DNA from: a virus
Virus record (IMG/VR): IMGVR_UViG_3300029448_000050
Coordinates: 14,556-55,746 of that record
Length of the DNA stretch: 41,191 bases
Reading direction: 5' to 3' (one strand)
In this document: positions 4,537-10,865 of the stretch, one piece after another
How positions within the stretch are numbered: the stretch's first letter is position 1
Layout of the letters: each line of letters opens with the position of its first letter
The notes under the pieces: generated by a model
Seen by the model: the letters and a program-made list of their open reading frames with translations, nothing else
The model's database searches: none
Told to the model about the DNA's origin: nothing
Translations under genes and position numbers: made by a program

Positions 4537-4774
4537 ACATAAGCTAGTGTATTCTACACTAGTTTTTCCAAAGGAGGAATTGCAGTCCATAATTGCTAAT
4601 TCCATTAGTAAAGGACTTGATACTCAAGTCCTTCCAAAGTTCATATCGGTATCCGATATGACTTTCAATCATGGTAGAAATGAAGCATACGTTGATTTCT
4701 CAATTAATTATGAGGATATCTTGCGTACCATGCCTAGTTATGATGAAAATGAGGACGGTTCAGATGAGTATTAA
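4523..4774 (+). CDS. Small early protein of unknown function (83 aa)
   Basis: Begins MPLIRHKLVYSTLVFPKEEL and ends with an acidic tail (SYDENEDGSDEY). It has a ribosome site TAGGAGG before its ATG and overlaps both neighbours: 14 bases with the gene before it, 11 bases with the amidoligase that follows. This tight coupling suggests stoichiometric production with the amidoligase. The acidic tail could mimic DNA or mediate protein contact, but that is speculation. No family is recognised. Confidence 0.7.
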   Translation: MPLIRHKLVYSTLVFPKEELQSIIANSISKGLDTQVLPKFISVSDMTFNHGRNEAYVDFSINYEDILRTMPSYDENEDGSDEY

Positions 4775-5729
4775 AAACTGGATCATGCCACAAATGGCAC
4801 TCACCAGTGAGCAAGACTGTTGTAGTGATCCATACATTGAGGACGGTTATTGTAACGAATGCGAAACAAATATCGACGACTTACCAGGTGGTGAATCAGG
4901 TTATTTGTGGAATTACGGTTACAAACCATTTGGCGGTATGTACTTAGACGTCGTCGACGGTGAGTTCGTTTGGCTACAAGTATCCAAACTCACCACCGAT
5001 AAAATGGTATACGGCTTAGAGCTAGAAGTTGTATATCGTAACGATTACAACATGGAATACGTCGTTAATACCTTAAGAGGTATCAACGGTGCATTCGGTG
5101 CTCATAGTGCAGACAGTATTGTTTTCTGTATCGGCAAAGAGGATAGCACAGTAGACGTAGAATTTGTCACTGCGCCTTTTACATACGAAGCGTATGTAAA
5201 AGCTTTGCCTATGCTTGAAAGTGTTCTTGAGCAAGCTCAAGAATATTTCAAAGCATTTTACGCGCCCAGTGCAGGAGCACATGTGCACGTAAACAAAAAC
5301 AGTTTGTCTTTGACAACTGCTTATGCATGGATTCAGTTTCATTACGATAATCCAGGCTTAATCGCCGATATCGCTCAACGCTCTATCGGCACAGACGCAG
5401 AGTGGTGCTACATGCAGAAACCAGACATTCCTGTTGCGCAAATAGCGAAACAGAAATATGGTTTCCCAAATCGTGGTGCTCTTGCAGATACTCATGCTAC
5501 TATCGAACATCGCTACTTTCGTAGCAATCTTCGACCAGCACGTATTTCTAAAAACATGGAGTTTTTAGAAAGTATGTTTTCGTATTTCAATACATTAACA
5601 TACCAAGATATGGCACGCGACGGTGCACATAAGCTATACGCTTATTTAGCACACGTGTCGCTCATGCGTCACCAGTACCCAAACTTATATGACTTCTTAG
5701 TCAGGAAAGGATATATATCATGTGTGTAA
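4764..5729 (+). CDS. Amidoligase-like (COOH-NH2 ligase) enzyme with N-terminal Cys cluster
   Basis: A 321-residue protein resembling the glutamine-synthetase-fold amidoligases (COOH-NH2 ligases). Landmarks are GLELEV (residues 84-89, paired Glu for metal/ATP), DVEFVTAPF, AGAHVHVN (His-rich strand) and TIEHRYFRSNL, in the order seen in that family. The family joins an amine to a carboxylate using ATP. The N-terminus has C19, C20, C30 and C33 (DCCSDPYIEDGYCNEC), probably a small zinc-binding module. I start at 4764 because GAGGA lies 8 bases upstream and the ATG overlaps the previous gene; an upstream frame to 4671 is a shadow of that gene. The next gene is a glutamine amidotransferase, a likely ammonia source. 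Substrate unknown. Confidence 0.75.
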   Translation: MSIKNWIMPQMALTSEQDCCSDPYIEDGYCNECETNIDDLPGGESGYLWNYGYKPFGGMYLDVVDGEFVWLQVSKLTTDKMVYGLELEVVYRNDYNMEYVVNTLRGINGAFGAHSADSIVFCIGKEDSTVDVEFVTAPFTYEAYVKALPMLESVLEQAQEYFKAFYAPSAGAHVHVNKNSLSLTTAYAWIQFHYDNPGLIADIAQRSIGTDAEWCYMQKPDIPVAQIAKQKYGFPNRGALADTHATIEHRYFRSNLRPARISKNMEFLESMFSYFNTLTYQDMARDGAHKLYAYLAHVSLMRHQYPNLYDFLVRKGYISCV

Positions 5730-6544
5730 TCGCATTGTCCCCAATCGGCAAAAGTATTGACAAGTCAACACTTTCCGATATGTGGGATACCAACCCAGAC
5801 GGTTCAGGTATTAGTTTCATAGATGAAACCAAAACCATACAAACCTACAAGTCAATGGATAAAGATGACTTTATCAATGTTGCCTTGTCTGTGTTCGACA
5901 AGTACTCAGTATCGTCACCGATACTTGTACATTGTCGTATTGCTACTCATGGTTCTGTTTGCCTTGCAAACAATCACCCATTTAATGTAGACAATCACAC
6001 TGTTATGGCTCACAATGGCATTATAAGTTGTGTTGAAGTGCCCGACGCGTCGGACATTTCAGACACACGTATGTTTATTAATACATGGCTCAGATATCTA
6101 CGACCTACGTGGTTAGATGATCCAGATATGTGTGAATACGTCGGTGAAATTATTGGTTGGAGTAAACTAGCGTTTCTCACAACCAATCCAAACCTTCGTA
6201 ATGATTATTACATAATCAACGAGGACGACGGTACATGGACTAACGGCACGTGGTTTTCTAACGTAAACCACTGTACCTTGTCAAACGTAAACTACCAGTT
6301 TAGTTATGACTACGGTACGCGCTATATGGACGGTTCATATATATCCGACGTTGTATCGGTTACTGAACACATTGACATTTGTCTTGATGAATTAATTCAA
6401 TTCTCAGGCTTCGAAAAGGATCAGCTCATGAAGCTTTCATTCGCTGATATCTCAGACCTTTTCGAATGTGAATTCGGTATGTGTGACTTTACCAAGTCGC
6501 AATGGGATTCTTTTGTTAGCACGCTATTTCGCGCTAACAAGTAA
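5720..6544 (+). CDS. Class II glutamine amidotransferase
   Basis: A 274-residue Ntn-type glutaminase domain, which hydrolyses glutamine to release ammonia. The nucleophile is Cys2 after the initiator Met (MCVIALSP). Other family landmarks are NPDGSGISF, the substrate-binding HCRIATHG with the following NNHPF, and MAHNGII, which holds the oxyanion and glutamine contacts. The start is certain because Cys2 must be exposed. It overlaps the amidoligase by 10 bases, with a ribosome site AGGAAAGGA upstream, so the two are translationally coupled. The region after about residue 190 is less typical. The pair probably makes an amide on a metabolite, peptide or cell-wall component. A strong terminator follows directly. 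Confidence 0.88.
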   Translation: MCVIALSPIGKSIDKSTLSDMWDTNPDGSGISFIDETKTIQTYKSMDKDDFINVALSVFDKYSVSSPILVHCRIATHGSVCLANNHPFNVDNHTVMAHNGIISCVEVPDASDISDTRMFINTWLRYLRPTWLDDPDMCEYVGEIIGWSKLAFLTTNPNLRNDYYIINEDDGTWTNGTWFSNVNHCTLSNVNYQFSYDYGTRYMDGSYISDVVSVTEHIDICLDELIQFSGFEKDQLMKLSFADISDLFECEFGMCDFTKSQWDSFVSTLFRANK

Positions 6545-7688: not shown

Positions 7689-7919
7689 ATGTCAGCAGAA
7701 ATTCAAAAAAATTTAGAGGAATTTGTTTCCCCTAAATTACGTAGAAAATGGTATGCAGATAATTGGGATTTGTTTGACACAGTCATAAATGAAATTATGG
7801 CAAAAGATTATCCAATATTATACGTTTCAGAATATCTAGCCTCACAGGGCAATCCGTTCGCACTTAAAACAATACAGAAACATGTCAAAGAAGAAATCAC
7901 TAGAAGACTTTCTAAGTAA
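7689..7919 (+). CDS. Small protein of unknown function, possibly HTH (76 aa)
   Basis: I start at the ATG at 7689 because GGAGG is 3 bases upstream and the longer frame from 7629 would cross the promoter. The protein begins MSAEIQKNLEEFVSPKLRRK. Its second half, YVSEYLASQGNPFALKTIQK, has the spacing of a helix-turn-helix with a basic recognition helix, so it may bind DNA, but the match is weak. It overlaps the metallophosphoesterase by 38 bases. No family is recognised. Confidence 0.65.
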   Translation: MSAEIQKNLEEFVSPKLRRKWYADNWDLFDTVINEIMAKDYPILYVSEYLASQGNPFALKTIQKHVKEEITRRLSK

Positions 7920-9087
7920 GCAAAAAGAAATAGAGCAGCACAAGACTGCTGCTAAACGTAAGCACCCCAAAGGTTTTGAACCTGGTGTATCTTATAATCC
8001 AAATACTAATACTGGACATGTAGTTTCGCGCCCAACTACAAACCCTAACCCTACTTTCGAAGCCCTTTTACGTGAGTGGGGTTGGGATCCAGCTGAATAT
8101 GAGATACTAGGAAATTTACACGTAAGAACATGGGATATGAATATGGGGCAAGGTGTTAAAGAACAAGCTTGGTATTACAAAGCTGATATAAAGAAAAGAG
8201 ATCCAGAGAAAGACGCTGATTTAAAAATACTTATTTCACAAATTAAAAAACAAAAGCCTTTTAAAAAACCACCTGCTACTAAAAAAGGAGTTGGATTTTT
8301 TTATTTTGCTAGTGACTGGCAACTTGGAAAATCTGACGGAGAAGGCCCTCAAGGAACTATAGATAGAGTTAAATTAAGTCTTGATAAAACTATTGAAAGA
8401 TTAAAAGAATTAAAAAAACTTGGTGTCAACGTGCACACTATTTATATTATTTCTTTAGGTGATCTAATTGAAGGAGTCACAGGATTTTACCCAGGCCAAA
8501 CTCATAAAGTTCAGTTAGATAGACTAGAACAAATAACTGTGTGTCGTAGATTATTTTTAGAAGTTGTTACTACTCTTTCTAAACATGCTCCCAGAGTTAT
8601 AGTTGGAGGTGTGCCTGGAAATCATGGTCAAAATCGTGGCAGAGATAAAAATGTTATTACATCTGAATTAGATAATGATGACATTGGTATTCTAATCTCT
8701 TCTGCAGATGCTCTCTCTTATGGACCTTATAAGCATGTTAAATTTGTTATACCAGAAGGACATCATCTAACAATTGATTGTCAAGGAACTGTTATAGGTT
8801 TTACTCATGGACATTTAAGTCGTGGTGGAAGTAATCCAGGAGATCGTCTTATGAATTTTTGGAAGGGTCAAAGTTTTGGTATGCAAAGTTTAGGAGATGC
8901 AACAATACTTGTATCAGGCCATTACCACCATTTAAGAACTATACAAGACGGAGTAAGAACTTGGTTTCAAGTTCCTTCTTTAGATGCCAGTACATATTTT
9001 AAAGAACAATTTGGTACAGAAACTATAAACAATGTAGTCACATTTACTGTGGATAAAAATGGTTGGGACAATTTTAAATTAGTCTAA
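7882..9087 (+). CDS. Calcineurin-like metallophosphoesterase
   Basis: 401 residues. The catalytic domain starts near residue 138 and has the family's metal-binding blocks: ASDWQLG (D145), SLGDLIEG (D194), GNHG (N247, H248), FTHGH (H309, H311) and SGHYHH (H347, H349). These coordinate two metal ions for phosphodiester or phosphomonoester hydrolysis. The first 130 residues are basic and Pro/Lys-rich with a predicted helix (EALLREWGWDPAEYEI) and are not typical of the family; they could bind DNA. A role as a nuclease (SbcD/Mre11-like) beside recombination genes is possible, but no partner ATPase is present. The start overlaps the previous gene and lacks a good ribosome site, so translation is probably coupled. 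Confidence 0.85.
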   Translation: MSKKKSLEDFLSKQKEIEQHKTAAKRKHPKGFEPGVSYNPNTNTGHVVSRPTTNPNPTFEALLREWGWDPAEYEILGNLHVRTWDMNMGQGVKEQAWYYKADIKKRDPEKDADLKILISQIKKQKPFKKPPATKKGVGFFYFASDWQLGKSDGEGPQGTIDRVKLSLDKTIERLKELKKLGVNVHTIYIISLGDLIEGVTGFYPGQTHKVQLDRLEQITVCRRLFLEVVTTLSKHAPRVIVGGVPGNHGQNRGRDKNVITSELDNDDIGILISSADALSYGPYKHVKFVIPEGHHLTIDCQGTVIGFTHGHLSRGGSNPGDRLMNFWKGQSFGMQSLGDATILVSGHYHHLRTIQDGVRTWFQVPSLDASTYFKEQFGTETINNVVTFTVDKNGWDNFKLV

Positions 9088-9091
9088 TATC

Positions 9092-9119
9092 TTGACTAAA
9101 ATTCTACTTATACTAAACT
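9092..9119 (+). promoter_or_regulatory. Promoter of recombination operon
   Basis: TTGACT (9092-9097), 16 bases, then TAAACT (9114-9119), just after the metallophosphoesterase stop. The predicted start of transcription (about 9126) coincides with the first strand of the structured leader RNA described next, which supports both calls. Confidence 0.5.
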
Positions 9120-9125
9120 TGAATC

Positions 9126-9223
9126 AAGATTGGTTGTCAGGAACCCTACTCGCAAGAGCTGGAATAAAGGCAGTATAAACAGATTAACTTTCCTGTTCTG
9201 CCCGCCAATCTTATAAAGGAGGT
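9126..9223 (+). ncRNA. Structured 5' leader RNA with possible pseudoknot (cis-regulatory candidate)
   Basis: An outer stem AAGATTGG (9126-9133) with CCAATCTT (9205-9212) encloses CAGGAA (9138-9143) with TTCCTG (9190-9195), CTC-GCAA-GAG (9149-9158), and GGCAG (9169-9173) with CTGCC (9198-9202). The second and fourth helices cross, which defines a pseudoknot. The outer helix ends just 3 bases before AAAGGAGGT, so its closing could control ribosome access to the gene at 9227. It does not match any riboswitch consensus I can recall. It is not a tRNA because there is no T-arm. Confidence 0.55.
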
Positions 9224-9226
9224 AGT

Positions 9227-9481
9227 ATGACAGAAATACATGAAGAACTTCCAAAAAGGGAGTATGTAAAGTCTGAAACACGACCACTTGCTGAACGCAT
9301 GGGATTTATTCAATTAATGGATAAACACCCTGACAAGTGGGTTGAATTACTTTCTGTTCAGAGAAAAAAAAGACAGAAGATATACAATATGGCATCATAT
9401 TTTAGGAAGTCGCACCCCTATTATGATTTCAAAAGTGTAAGCGTTCGAAACTCTGTTAATTTGTATGGGAGGAAAAAATGA
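9227..9481 (+). CDS. Small basic protein of unknown function (84 aa)
   Basis: First gene of the recombination operon, translated from a very strong site (AAAGGAGGT). It begins MTEIHEELPKREYVKSE and is rich in Lys/Arg in its second half (RKKRQKIYNMASYFRKSH), so nucleic-acid binding is plausible. It overlaps the next gene by 4 bases. Expression probably depends on the structured leader upstream. No family is recognised. Confidence 0.7.
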   Translation: MTEIHEELPKREYVKSETRPLAERMGFIQLMDKHPDKWVELLSVQRKKRQKIYNMASYFRKSHPYYDFKSVSVRNSVNLYGRKK

Positions 9482-10026
9482 TGTATACAGATGATATATT
9501 AGACGCAGCTAAAGAAGTGTCTAAATCAGATGAGATTGAAAATACTGAAATTGCATTTGACATTGATGAAATGAAAGATGTAGATCTTGCAGTTGCTCGT
9601 ATACCAATAACAAATGCTAAACAAGCTACAACAAGAATCAATAGTTATGCTGACTCTAAGTTAGCATCTCAAATTGAAGAGACTGGTACGTTTAAATTGA
9701 ACAATACTGTGTTCCATGTTAATAAAGGATATAAGTATAAAACAATAGACTTACCTGGTTTTTTAAATTGGTTACTTGAAGGTAATGCTAGTGCCAGTGT
9801 AATGGGTGATTTGTCTGCTATATTAGGACATACATTTGTACCTAAATTGCGTGGACTTGATGCCGTGGCTGAAAAACGTGGTATGAAATCACAAGTTGCT
9901 AGAGATACTTTTTTAGAAAGAGTTGTAGATGAAAAATCTAAGTTAGCAGTTATTAATTGTGATACTGCTGCTGCACCTAAATGGGCAGTAGGTATGGAGG
10001 ACGGTGATAGACTTGAAAGACCTTAA
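9478..10026 (+). CDS. Unknown protein in recombination operon (182 aa)
   Basis: Begins with two Met codons (MMYTDDILDAAKE) after GGGAGGAAAAA. The N-terminal 45 residues are strongly acidic, the rest mixed alpha/beta. No membrane segment or catalytic motif stands out. It overlaps the annealing-protein gene by 23 bases. Its place directly before Rad52/ERF-like and SSB-like genes suggests a part in recombination or replication, but I do not recognise the family. Confidence 0.7.
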   Translation: MMYTDDILDAAKEVSKSDEIENTEIAFDIDEMKDVDLAVARIPITNAKQATTRINSYADSKLASQIEETGTFKLNNTVFHVNKGYKYKTIDLPGFLNWLLEGNASASVMGDLSAILGHTFVPKLRGLDAVAEKRGMKSQVARDTFLERVVDEKSKLAVINCDTAAAPKWAVGMEDGDRLERP

Positions 10027-10441
10027 AGCATTAGCAAAACCATTTACTGCTTTAGTTAAAAAAGGTAGTGATGCAGGTAAATTTGGTGACTATGTAGAAC
10101 ATAGTGCAGTTAATCAAAGGTTGCTTGCGCACTTAGGTCCTTTTGATCAAAGAGTTGTTGAGGTTGTGTATGACTTGCACCCTGAATTTGGGCAAGTATG
10201 CACTGGCGTAATCTTAGAACTTAGTCTTTATATTGACGGTGAGCAAATTAAGATTCAAGAAGTTGGTGACGTTGAACACCCATTTCGTAAAGGTAGAACT
10301 AATGGTGACAGATTAAAAAATGCTATTAGTGATGCAATTAAAAGATGTGCTATGAGAGTAGGTCTAGGGCTACATTTATATGCACAAGATGATTATTTCC
10401 TAGAGAAACTATTGGAGGACAAAAATGACAGTACAAGCTAA
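10004..10441 (+). CDS. Rad52/ERF-type single-strand annealing protein (probable)
   Basis: 145 residues. The second half, DRLKNAISDAIKRCAMRVGL followed by GLHLY, matches the block typical of ERF/Rad52-like phage annealing proteins (an alanine/lysine helix then a GLGxxLY turn). These proteins anneal complementary strands during phage recombination and concatemer formation. The start is a GTG at 10004 with GGAGG only 3 bases away; a TTG at 10013 is an alternative with wider spacing. It overlaps both neighbours and is followed by an SSB-like gene, a common pairing. Residue-level similarity is moderate, so the exact family (ERF, Sak or Rad52) is not fixed. Confidence 0.65.
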   Translation: MIDLKDLKALAKPFTALVKKGSDAGKFGDYVEHSAVNQRLLAHLGPFDQRVVEVVYDLHPEFGQVCTGVILELSLYIDGEQIKIQEVGDVEHPFRKGRTNGDRLKNAISDAIKRCAMRVGLGLHLYAQDDYFLEKLLEDKNDSTS

Positions 10442-10865
10442 AAAAATTAGTTTAACATCTGATGACATATCAGGTAATGGTGGTGTTAATCAAATTACCC
10501 CTGGTGATTATGAAGCAACCATTGTAGAAGTAGTAGATCACGTGGCTCAAAGCGGGAACGAAGGCTGGAAGTGGACTGTGCAAGTTGGAAAGTTAAAACT
10601 TTTTACTTTCACTATGTTCACTAAAAATGCAAAGTGGAAACTTGTTGAGTTAATCGGAGCACTTGGTTTACCTATGCAAGAAGGTGAGATTAGCTTTAAT
10701 CCACAAGATTATGTAGGAAAGCCTATAGGTGTAGAATTAATTGAGGACAAGAACGATAGTCGATATCTTGAAATTAATAAATTCTTTCCTGTTGGTGCTA
10801 AGAAAGTTACTGCAGTAAATGCAGATGCTGCAGTTGAAGTTGACAAAGATGAGATACCTTTTTAA
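10425..10865 (+). CDS. SSB-like protein (DUF669-like) with acidic tail
   Basis: 146 residues with an OB-like beta-rich body (GDYEATIVEVVDHVAQSG, WKWTVQVGKLKLFTF, KPIGVELIEDKNDSRYLEI) and a C-terminal tail ending DKDEIPF. An acidic tail closing in IPF is the interaction motif of bacterial single-stranded DNA-binding proteins, used to recruit repair and replication enzymes. The body order resembles phage DUF669 proteins that sit beside annealing proteins. It has GGAGG 7 bases before the ATG and overlaps the annealing gene by 17 bases. It is the last gene of the operon; the terminator lies about 50 bases downstream. Confidence 0.75.
   Translation: MTVQAKKISLTSDDISGNGGVNQITPGDYEATIVEVVDHVAQSGNEGWKWTVQVGKLKLFTFTMFTKNAKWKLVELIGALGLPMQEGEISFNPQDYVGKPIGVELIEDKNDSRYLEINKFFPVGAKKVTAVNADAAVEVDKDEIPF

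Follow-up and report, generated by a model that had tools for sequence, protein, structure and literature searches.

A candidate class of pseudoknotted RNA domain found ahead of a phage recombination operon and in other phage contexts

An 87-base element that precedes a recombination operon almost certainly folds into a real pseudoknotted RNA structure. Judged by its sequence and its homologues, it is best read as an undescribed class of phage RNA domain of about 80-95 nt. The element was examined in a stretch of 41,191 nucleotides (the window) from a 55.7-kb virus record, and 15 other IMG/VR contigs were found to carry homologues. The class is supported by covariation, occurs in environmental phages, is missing from Rfam and was not found in the deposited-phage collection. 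Its recurrence inside long, structured noncoding stretches suggests an exchange of RNA domains among phages comparable to that of protein domains.

The leader element and its locus

Four helices make up the element (9126-9212, + strand): the outer stem P1, the P3 hairpin, and PKa and PKb, which cross each other. It lies in a 139-bp gap between an exonuclease gene and a block of four genes encoding p84, p182, a Rad52/Erf-like protein and a DUF669/SSB-like protein. As read from the sequence, the gap contains, in order, a promoter-like block, P1 enclosing PKa, P3 and PKb, a Shine-Dalgarno (SD) run and an ATG codon. The features are as follows.

7882-9087: exonuclease gene, upstream neighbour of the leader gap
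9088-9128, + strand: promoter block, TTGACT (9092-9097), 16 nt, TAAACT (9114-9119)
9126-9133, + strand: 5' strand of P1, AAGATTGG; both-side changes in 6 of 8 pairs
9138-9143, + strand: 5' strand of PKa, CAGGAA; invariant in 13 of 13 members, TTCCTG complement always present
9145-9162, + strand: P3 hairpin, CTC(GCAA)GAG at 9149-9158 plus CC/GG at 9145-9146/9161-9162
9152-9155, + strand: GCAA tetraloop of P3
9169-9173, + strand: 5' strand of PKb, GGCAG; both-side changes in 4 of 5 pairs
9174-9181, + strand: conserved unpaired TATRAACA within the loop 9174-9189; in 13 of 13 members, R being A in 12
9190-9195, + strand: 3' strand of PKa, TTCCTG (UUCCUG); invariant
9198-9202, + strand: 3' strand of PKb, CTGCC; covaries with 9169-9173
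9205-9212, + strand: 3' strand of P1, CCAATCTT; covaries with 9126-9133
9215-9222, + strand: SD run AAAGGAGG, read directly; lies beyond the fold
9227, + strand: ATG start codon
9227-9481, + strand: p84, first gene of the operon, 84-aa product of no assigned family; homologues in IMG/VR
9478-10026, + strand: p182; homologues in related contigs
10004-10441, + strand: Rad52/Erf-like annealing protein (PF04098, 23.7 bits; phrog_1097)
10425-10865, + strand: DUF669/SSB-like protein (PF05037, 21.2 bits; phrog_378)

Since the strands follow one another in the order PKa 5', P3, PKb 5', PKa 3', PKb 3', the helices PKa and PKb cross. A U.G pair at 9134/9204, which is U.G in 11 of 13 members and possibly G-C in L012, may lengthen P1 by a ninth pair. 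Besides TATRAACA, the conserved unpaired residues include the GT preceding CAGGAA and an AAA. The 3' end of P1 (9212) is only a few nucleotides ahead of the SD run (9215).

The initial annotation had a promoter and a start site coincide with the fold. Taken alone, the motif TTGACT-16-TAAACT was at chance level in a consensus scan; however, the block is conserved across related viral contigs with or without the RNA, and its 41-base pattern occurs once in the window. By the usual spacing, the predicted +1 (about 9126) coincides with the first base of P1 in the window phage, L012 and L029, and transcription is thus predicted to start at the 5' end of P1. At 9118-9128 the perfect odd palindrome CTTGAATCAAG extends over the predicted +1; relatives keep it whether or not they have the RNA, and it looks like a transcription operator.

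Pfam and PHROG profiles gave no family for p84 or p182. The AF2 model of p84 (pLDDT 84.6) had no significant relative in the PDB, the best Foldseek match being ribosomal protein S8 (E 0.11). The suggestion that p84 binds the leader found no backing, because phages without the RNA also encode p84 and because neither a family nor a significant solved relative of its fold was found. The top GenBank matches of the exonuclease were proteins of actinobacteriophages; the host is therefore likely to be actinobacterial, and probably marine. Elsewhere in the window (4671-6544), an amidoligase-like gene adjoins a class-II glutamine amidotransferase-like gene, and homologues of both are among the few genes common to the window phage and G001.

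Homologues and covariation

The thermodynamic z-score was -2.86 for a trimmed stretch and -1.11 for a slightly longer one. Because this score varies with the chosen ends, it was set aside, homologues were gathered and covariation was used instead. A search with the 84-aa p84 sequence yielded 13 IMG/VR loci. The element was present at the same place in seven of them (L001-L004 and L011-L013) and absent from five (L006-L010), while the L005 locus obtained in this search stops short of the element site. L029 and L032 came from a motif scan.

In an alignment of eight distinct sequences (A4), all 182 base-pair cells were standard pairs. Both-side changes were found in 12 of 23 pairs, compared with a shuffle mean of 5.8, and none of 500 shuffles reached the observed number; when the partners were slid as a control, pairing fell to 34-48%. 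The PKb 5' strand appears as GGCAG, GGCGA, GGCAA, AGTGA or AGAGG, each with a matching partner, and P3 covaries at its middle pair and its outer pair. When 13 sequences were considered, P1, PKa and PKb together had 219 of their 220 cells paired; these sequences represent perhaps six independent types, and the counts therefore overstate independence. The 87-base fold proposed initially, with its outer stem, GCAA hairpin and two crossing helices before the SD run, was borne out by the sequence and by this pairing. The covariation check that had been proposed for all four helices came out positive for P1, P3 and PKb, which are backed by compensatory changes; the fourth, PKa, never varies (13 of 13 invariant), and it is therefore supported by conservation only.

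In the nested minimum-free-energy structure, computed by a folding program that does not model pseudoknots, a helix AACAG/CUGUU takes the place of PKa. When it was substituted for PKa, 98.2% of the cells were paired overall, with zero double changes in that helix, which is broken in L003 and one pair short in L011 and L013. It was rejected as a substitute and is at most a possible second state. A leader-peptide attenuator was also rejected: a frame is open across the element in the window phage, and stops or frame changes break it in other members.

For distant members, a pattern lacking the GCAA hairpin was searched and scored with a covariance model (R1). Six contigs were added (L135, L140, L164, L169, L170 and L177) at 48-57 bits, the next match scoring 19. 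In these six members, P3 is capped by UUCG or UUAG on a CUC/GAG, CGC/GCG or CAC/GUG stem, which shows compensatory changes of its own, and P1 is GTAAG/CTTAC. Most of the six contigs have genes in common with the window phage, though only moderately identical ones; in comparisons of the distant contigs with this phage, identity was 25-46% over the aligned parts for the exonuclease and 47-73% for a DUF5675 protein. A second covariance model found no additional copies. Each record carries one copy, and the record of the window phage showed no other convincing P1-like stem ahead of start sites. Two weak model hits (L105, 20.7 bits; L021, 19.4 bits), with E-values of 0.003-0.09 according to the bases searched, were regarded as noise; the L105 hit reads like the antisense of a terminase-like gene.

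As the initial annotation had supposed, the leader matched no known class: Rfam 15 gave no match at the gathering threshold in the window or the related loci, and the best matches at a permissive E-value were at chance level. No convincing homologue of the element was found by blastn among GenBank phages and plasmids. A tight pattern run over 84,980 host-species genomes gave one true match, of the L012 form, in a phage-like contig of the MAG MED855. The STAXI motif is likewise a pseudoknot, with some UUCG tetraloops, near SSB and DNA-manipulating genes, whereas STAXI is a tandem pseudoknot repeat (PMC2864571) and the present element, in one copy per record, has no Rfam match. The manA and wcaG motifs are also structured RNAs of marine phages, for which a role in regulating neighbouring genes has been proposed, but they are reported from T4-like cyanophages near metabolic or stress genes (PMC2864571), and no Rfam family matched the element.

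Occurrence, exchange and proposed function

The same operon lacks the element in six contigs, L006-L010 and L060/L005, and L060/L005 is empty although it falls within the window phage's own clade. The operon can therefore function without this RNA, and the specific link that had been drawn between a ligand and production of the annealing and SSB-like proteins is not supported. The genes flanking the element site are 99.3% and 99.6% identical between L011, which has the element, and L006, which does not. On the other hand, the elements of L011 and L013 match at 94 of 95 positions while their flanks are only 88-89% identical. This pattern is most simply explained if homologous recombination carries the leader block from one related phage to another. 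It is apparent that the element is dispensable, being missing from very close relatives, and it thus looks like an exchangeable module rather than a fixed operon switch; such near-identical phages with and without it form a natural test pair for leader function. In L103 (100-195), a distant homologous operon carries an unrelated long structured leader at the same place before the SD run (z -6.7).

In seven contigs from more distant phages, the element lies elsewhere than at the recombination operon. The genes that follow it comprise the recombination operon, HTH genes and uncharacterised genes, with no evident common pathway. A recombination-specific role, as proposed at first, does not fit an element that elsewhere precedes unrelated genes or sits in noncoding regions. 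Because these contexts share no common function and the element is cleanly absent from some copies of the same operon, it appears to be a generic cis module. We tentatively propose, at a confidence just below even, that it is a cis-acting recognition or protection domain on its own transcript, exchangeable between phages. The predicted fold, in which P1 closes off an H-type pseudoknot (PKa and PKb) that has the P3 hairpin inserted, would form the extreme 5' end of the predicted recombination-operon mRNA and leave the SD run outside. A phage or host protein would bind the folded domain, or the domain would bar 5'-end-dependent ribonucleases, and binding or protection would set mRNA stability and ribosome loading. 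Phages would gain, lose and swap such a module, and in other places it serves as one domain of a longer structured noncoding region. The conserved unpaired residues could equally form a ligand pocket or a catalytic core instead.

The flaviviral exoribonuclease-resistant RNA, which is compact and pseudoknotted, stops bacterial RNase J1 in vitro (PMC5760640). Both it and the present element are compact pseudoknotted folds near an RNA 5' boundary; they have no sequence or Rfam relation, and resistance of the present element is putative.

The best biological precedent is autoregulation of the T4 gene 32 type, in which the SSB-like, the Rad52-like, p84 or another phage protein would bind the pseudoknot and repress its own operon. 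The T4/RB69 gene 32 operator is, like the present one, a phage 5' leader pseudoknot at a DNA-recombination/SSB gene (PMC535899), and the element lies near the 5' end of an operon with annealing and SSB-like genes. However, that operator is a pseudoknot of about 28 nt, separated from the start by more than 40 nt of UUAAA/UAAA sequence with less structure (PMC535899), whereas here an 87-nt domain closed by P1 ends a few nucleotides before the SD run, with no unstructured UUAAA-rich stretch, and also occurs in unrelated contexts. Moreover, the six contigs having the operon without the element argue against this explanation, as do the second-form phages that encode the annealing gene and lack the element upstream of it. 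We consider it unlikely.

A riboswitch is rather improbable. A small molecule or ion in the junction would favour PKa over the AACAG/CUGUU hairpin and so alter downstream expression. The compact pseudoknotted junction with its invariant unpaired residues resembles a conserved aptamer-like domain, and CUG takes part in two mutually exclusive pairings in most members; on the other hand, the defects of the alternative helix in L003, L011 and L013 weaken such a switch. In nested folding, no expression platform was seen: the SD run lies outside the fold and no terminator stands between element and gene in the window phage. The SD run was mostly unpaired with the element in nested folds of the window phage, L013 and L029; it had low accessibility in those of L003 and L011, which were made with a program that cannot model the pseudoknot. 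Unrelated downstream genes, an SD run that is unpaired in most folds, and dispensability argue against a pathway riboswitch, and the host-genome scan led to a phage-like contig only. Of the initial reading of the leader as a riboswitch or protein-binding RNA, a conserved pseudoknotted leader directly before the operon stands, and a metabolite switch is unsupported by gene class or by clear SD sequestration.

It is highly doubtful that the element is a self-cleaving ribozyme or an RNA-processing site that trims the transcript. It is a phage-borne pseudoknot with invariant loops, and relatives place it in intercistronic arrays of long stems; nevertheless, Rfam ribozyme families gave no match and the sequence offers no nameable cleavage site.

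RNA on the + strand is favoured because GCAA is swapped for UUCG or UUAG loops, because the P1 end carries U.G in 11 of 13 members, and because, wherever the context of a member is readable, the element is in sense orientation to the co-directional genes that follow; UUCG and GNRA (GCAA) loops stabilise RNA. A folded single-stranded DNA element (an origin, promoter or recombination site) would suit the nearby DNA-processing genes, the clean presence or absence and the lack of G.U pairs in the varying helices, a small point against RNA, but the loops, the U.G pair, the constant orientation and the location between promoter and SD run make it scarcely credible.

Long noncoding regions

The element of G001 (L032) stands at the head of 0.4 kb of noncoding sequence that precedes an HTH gene, and in several distant members it lies within noncoding regions of 0.4-0.9 kb with tandem stems. 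It is one domain of 841 nt of noncoding sequence in L135 (z -9.7) and of 466 nt in L169 (z -6.3). In G001 and most second-form phages the element does not immediately precede a start codon, and in L169 a terminator-like stem with T8 closes the region; action as a free RNA is therefore possible. A hairpin with paired variation in its arms, GTAGCTTG.../...CAAGCTA, is repeated in the long regions, which also carry a small CCCTGTT...GACTGAAA hairpin. No Rfam match and, by ARAGORN, no tRNA was found in the long regions or related loci.

These regions may belong to a new family of large ornate phage RNAs. It is conceivable, though we lean slightly against it, that the element is a domain of undescribed large modular phage RNAs, from which single domains have moved to mRNA leaders, for example as exoribonuclease-resistant caps. 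The exchangeable domains would be the pseudoknot, the GTAGCTTG hairpins of 15-20 bp and the CCCTGTT/GACTGAAA hairpin. The 0.4-0.9 kb regions resemble GOLLD and ROOL, long multi-domain pseudoknotted phage ncRNAs (PMC12286853); here, however, no family covariance model matched, no tRNA is nearby, and the domain also stands alone as an mRNA leader. The element's reuse in these regions gives a way into a large RNA family for which no published description was found.

Long noncoding regions are located at L135:2855-3800, L169:6600-7290, L170:1093-1880, L140:1-490 and L177:7500-8735 (- strand). They contain tandem stems of 15-20 bp, TAGGTAGCTTGTAGCACAT.../...TGTGTTACAAGCTATCTAT, with compensatory changes and conserved wobble pairs. 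The small hairpin, whose 3' loop contains CCCTGTT, recurs in L135 (~3580), L140 (27), L170 (~1172), L177, L169 (~7230) and L103 (~157), and is often followed by GACTGAAA directly ahead of the next GTAGCTTG stem. In addition, a second leader stem of the GTAGCTTG type (20 bp, z -6.1) is found at L032:3510-3595, directly before the SD run of the HTH gene.
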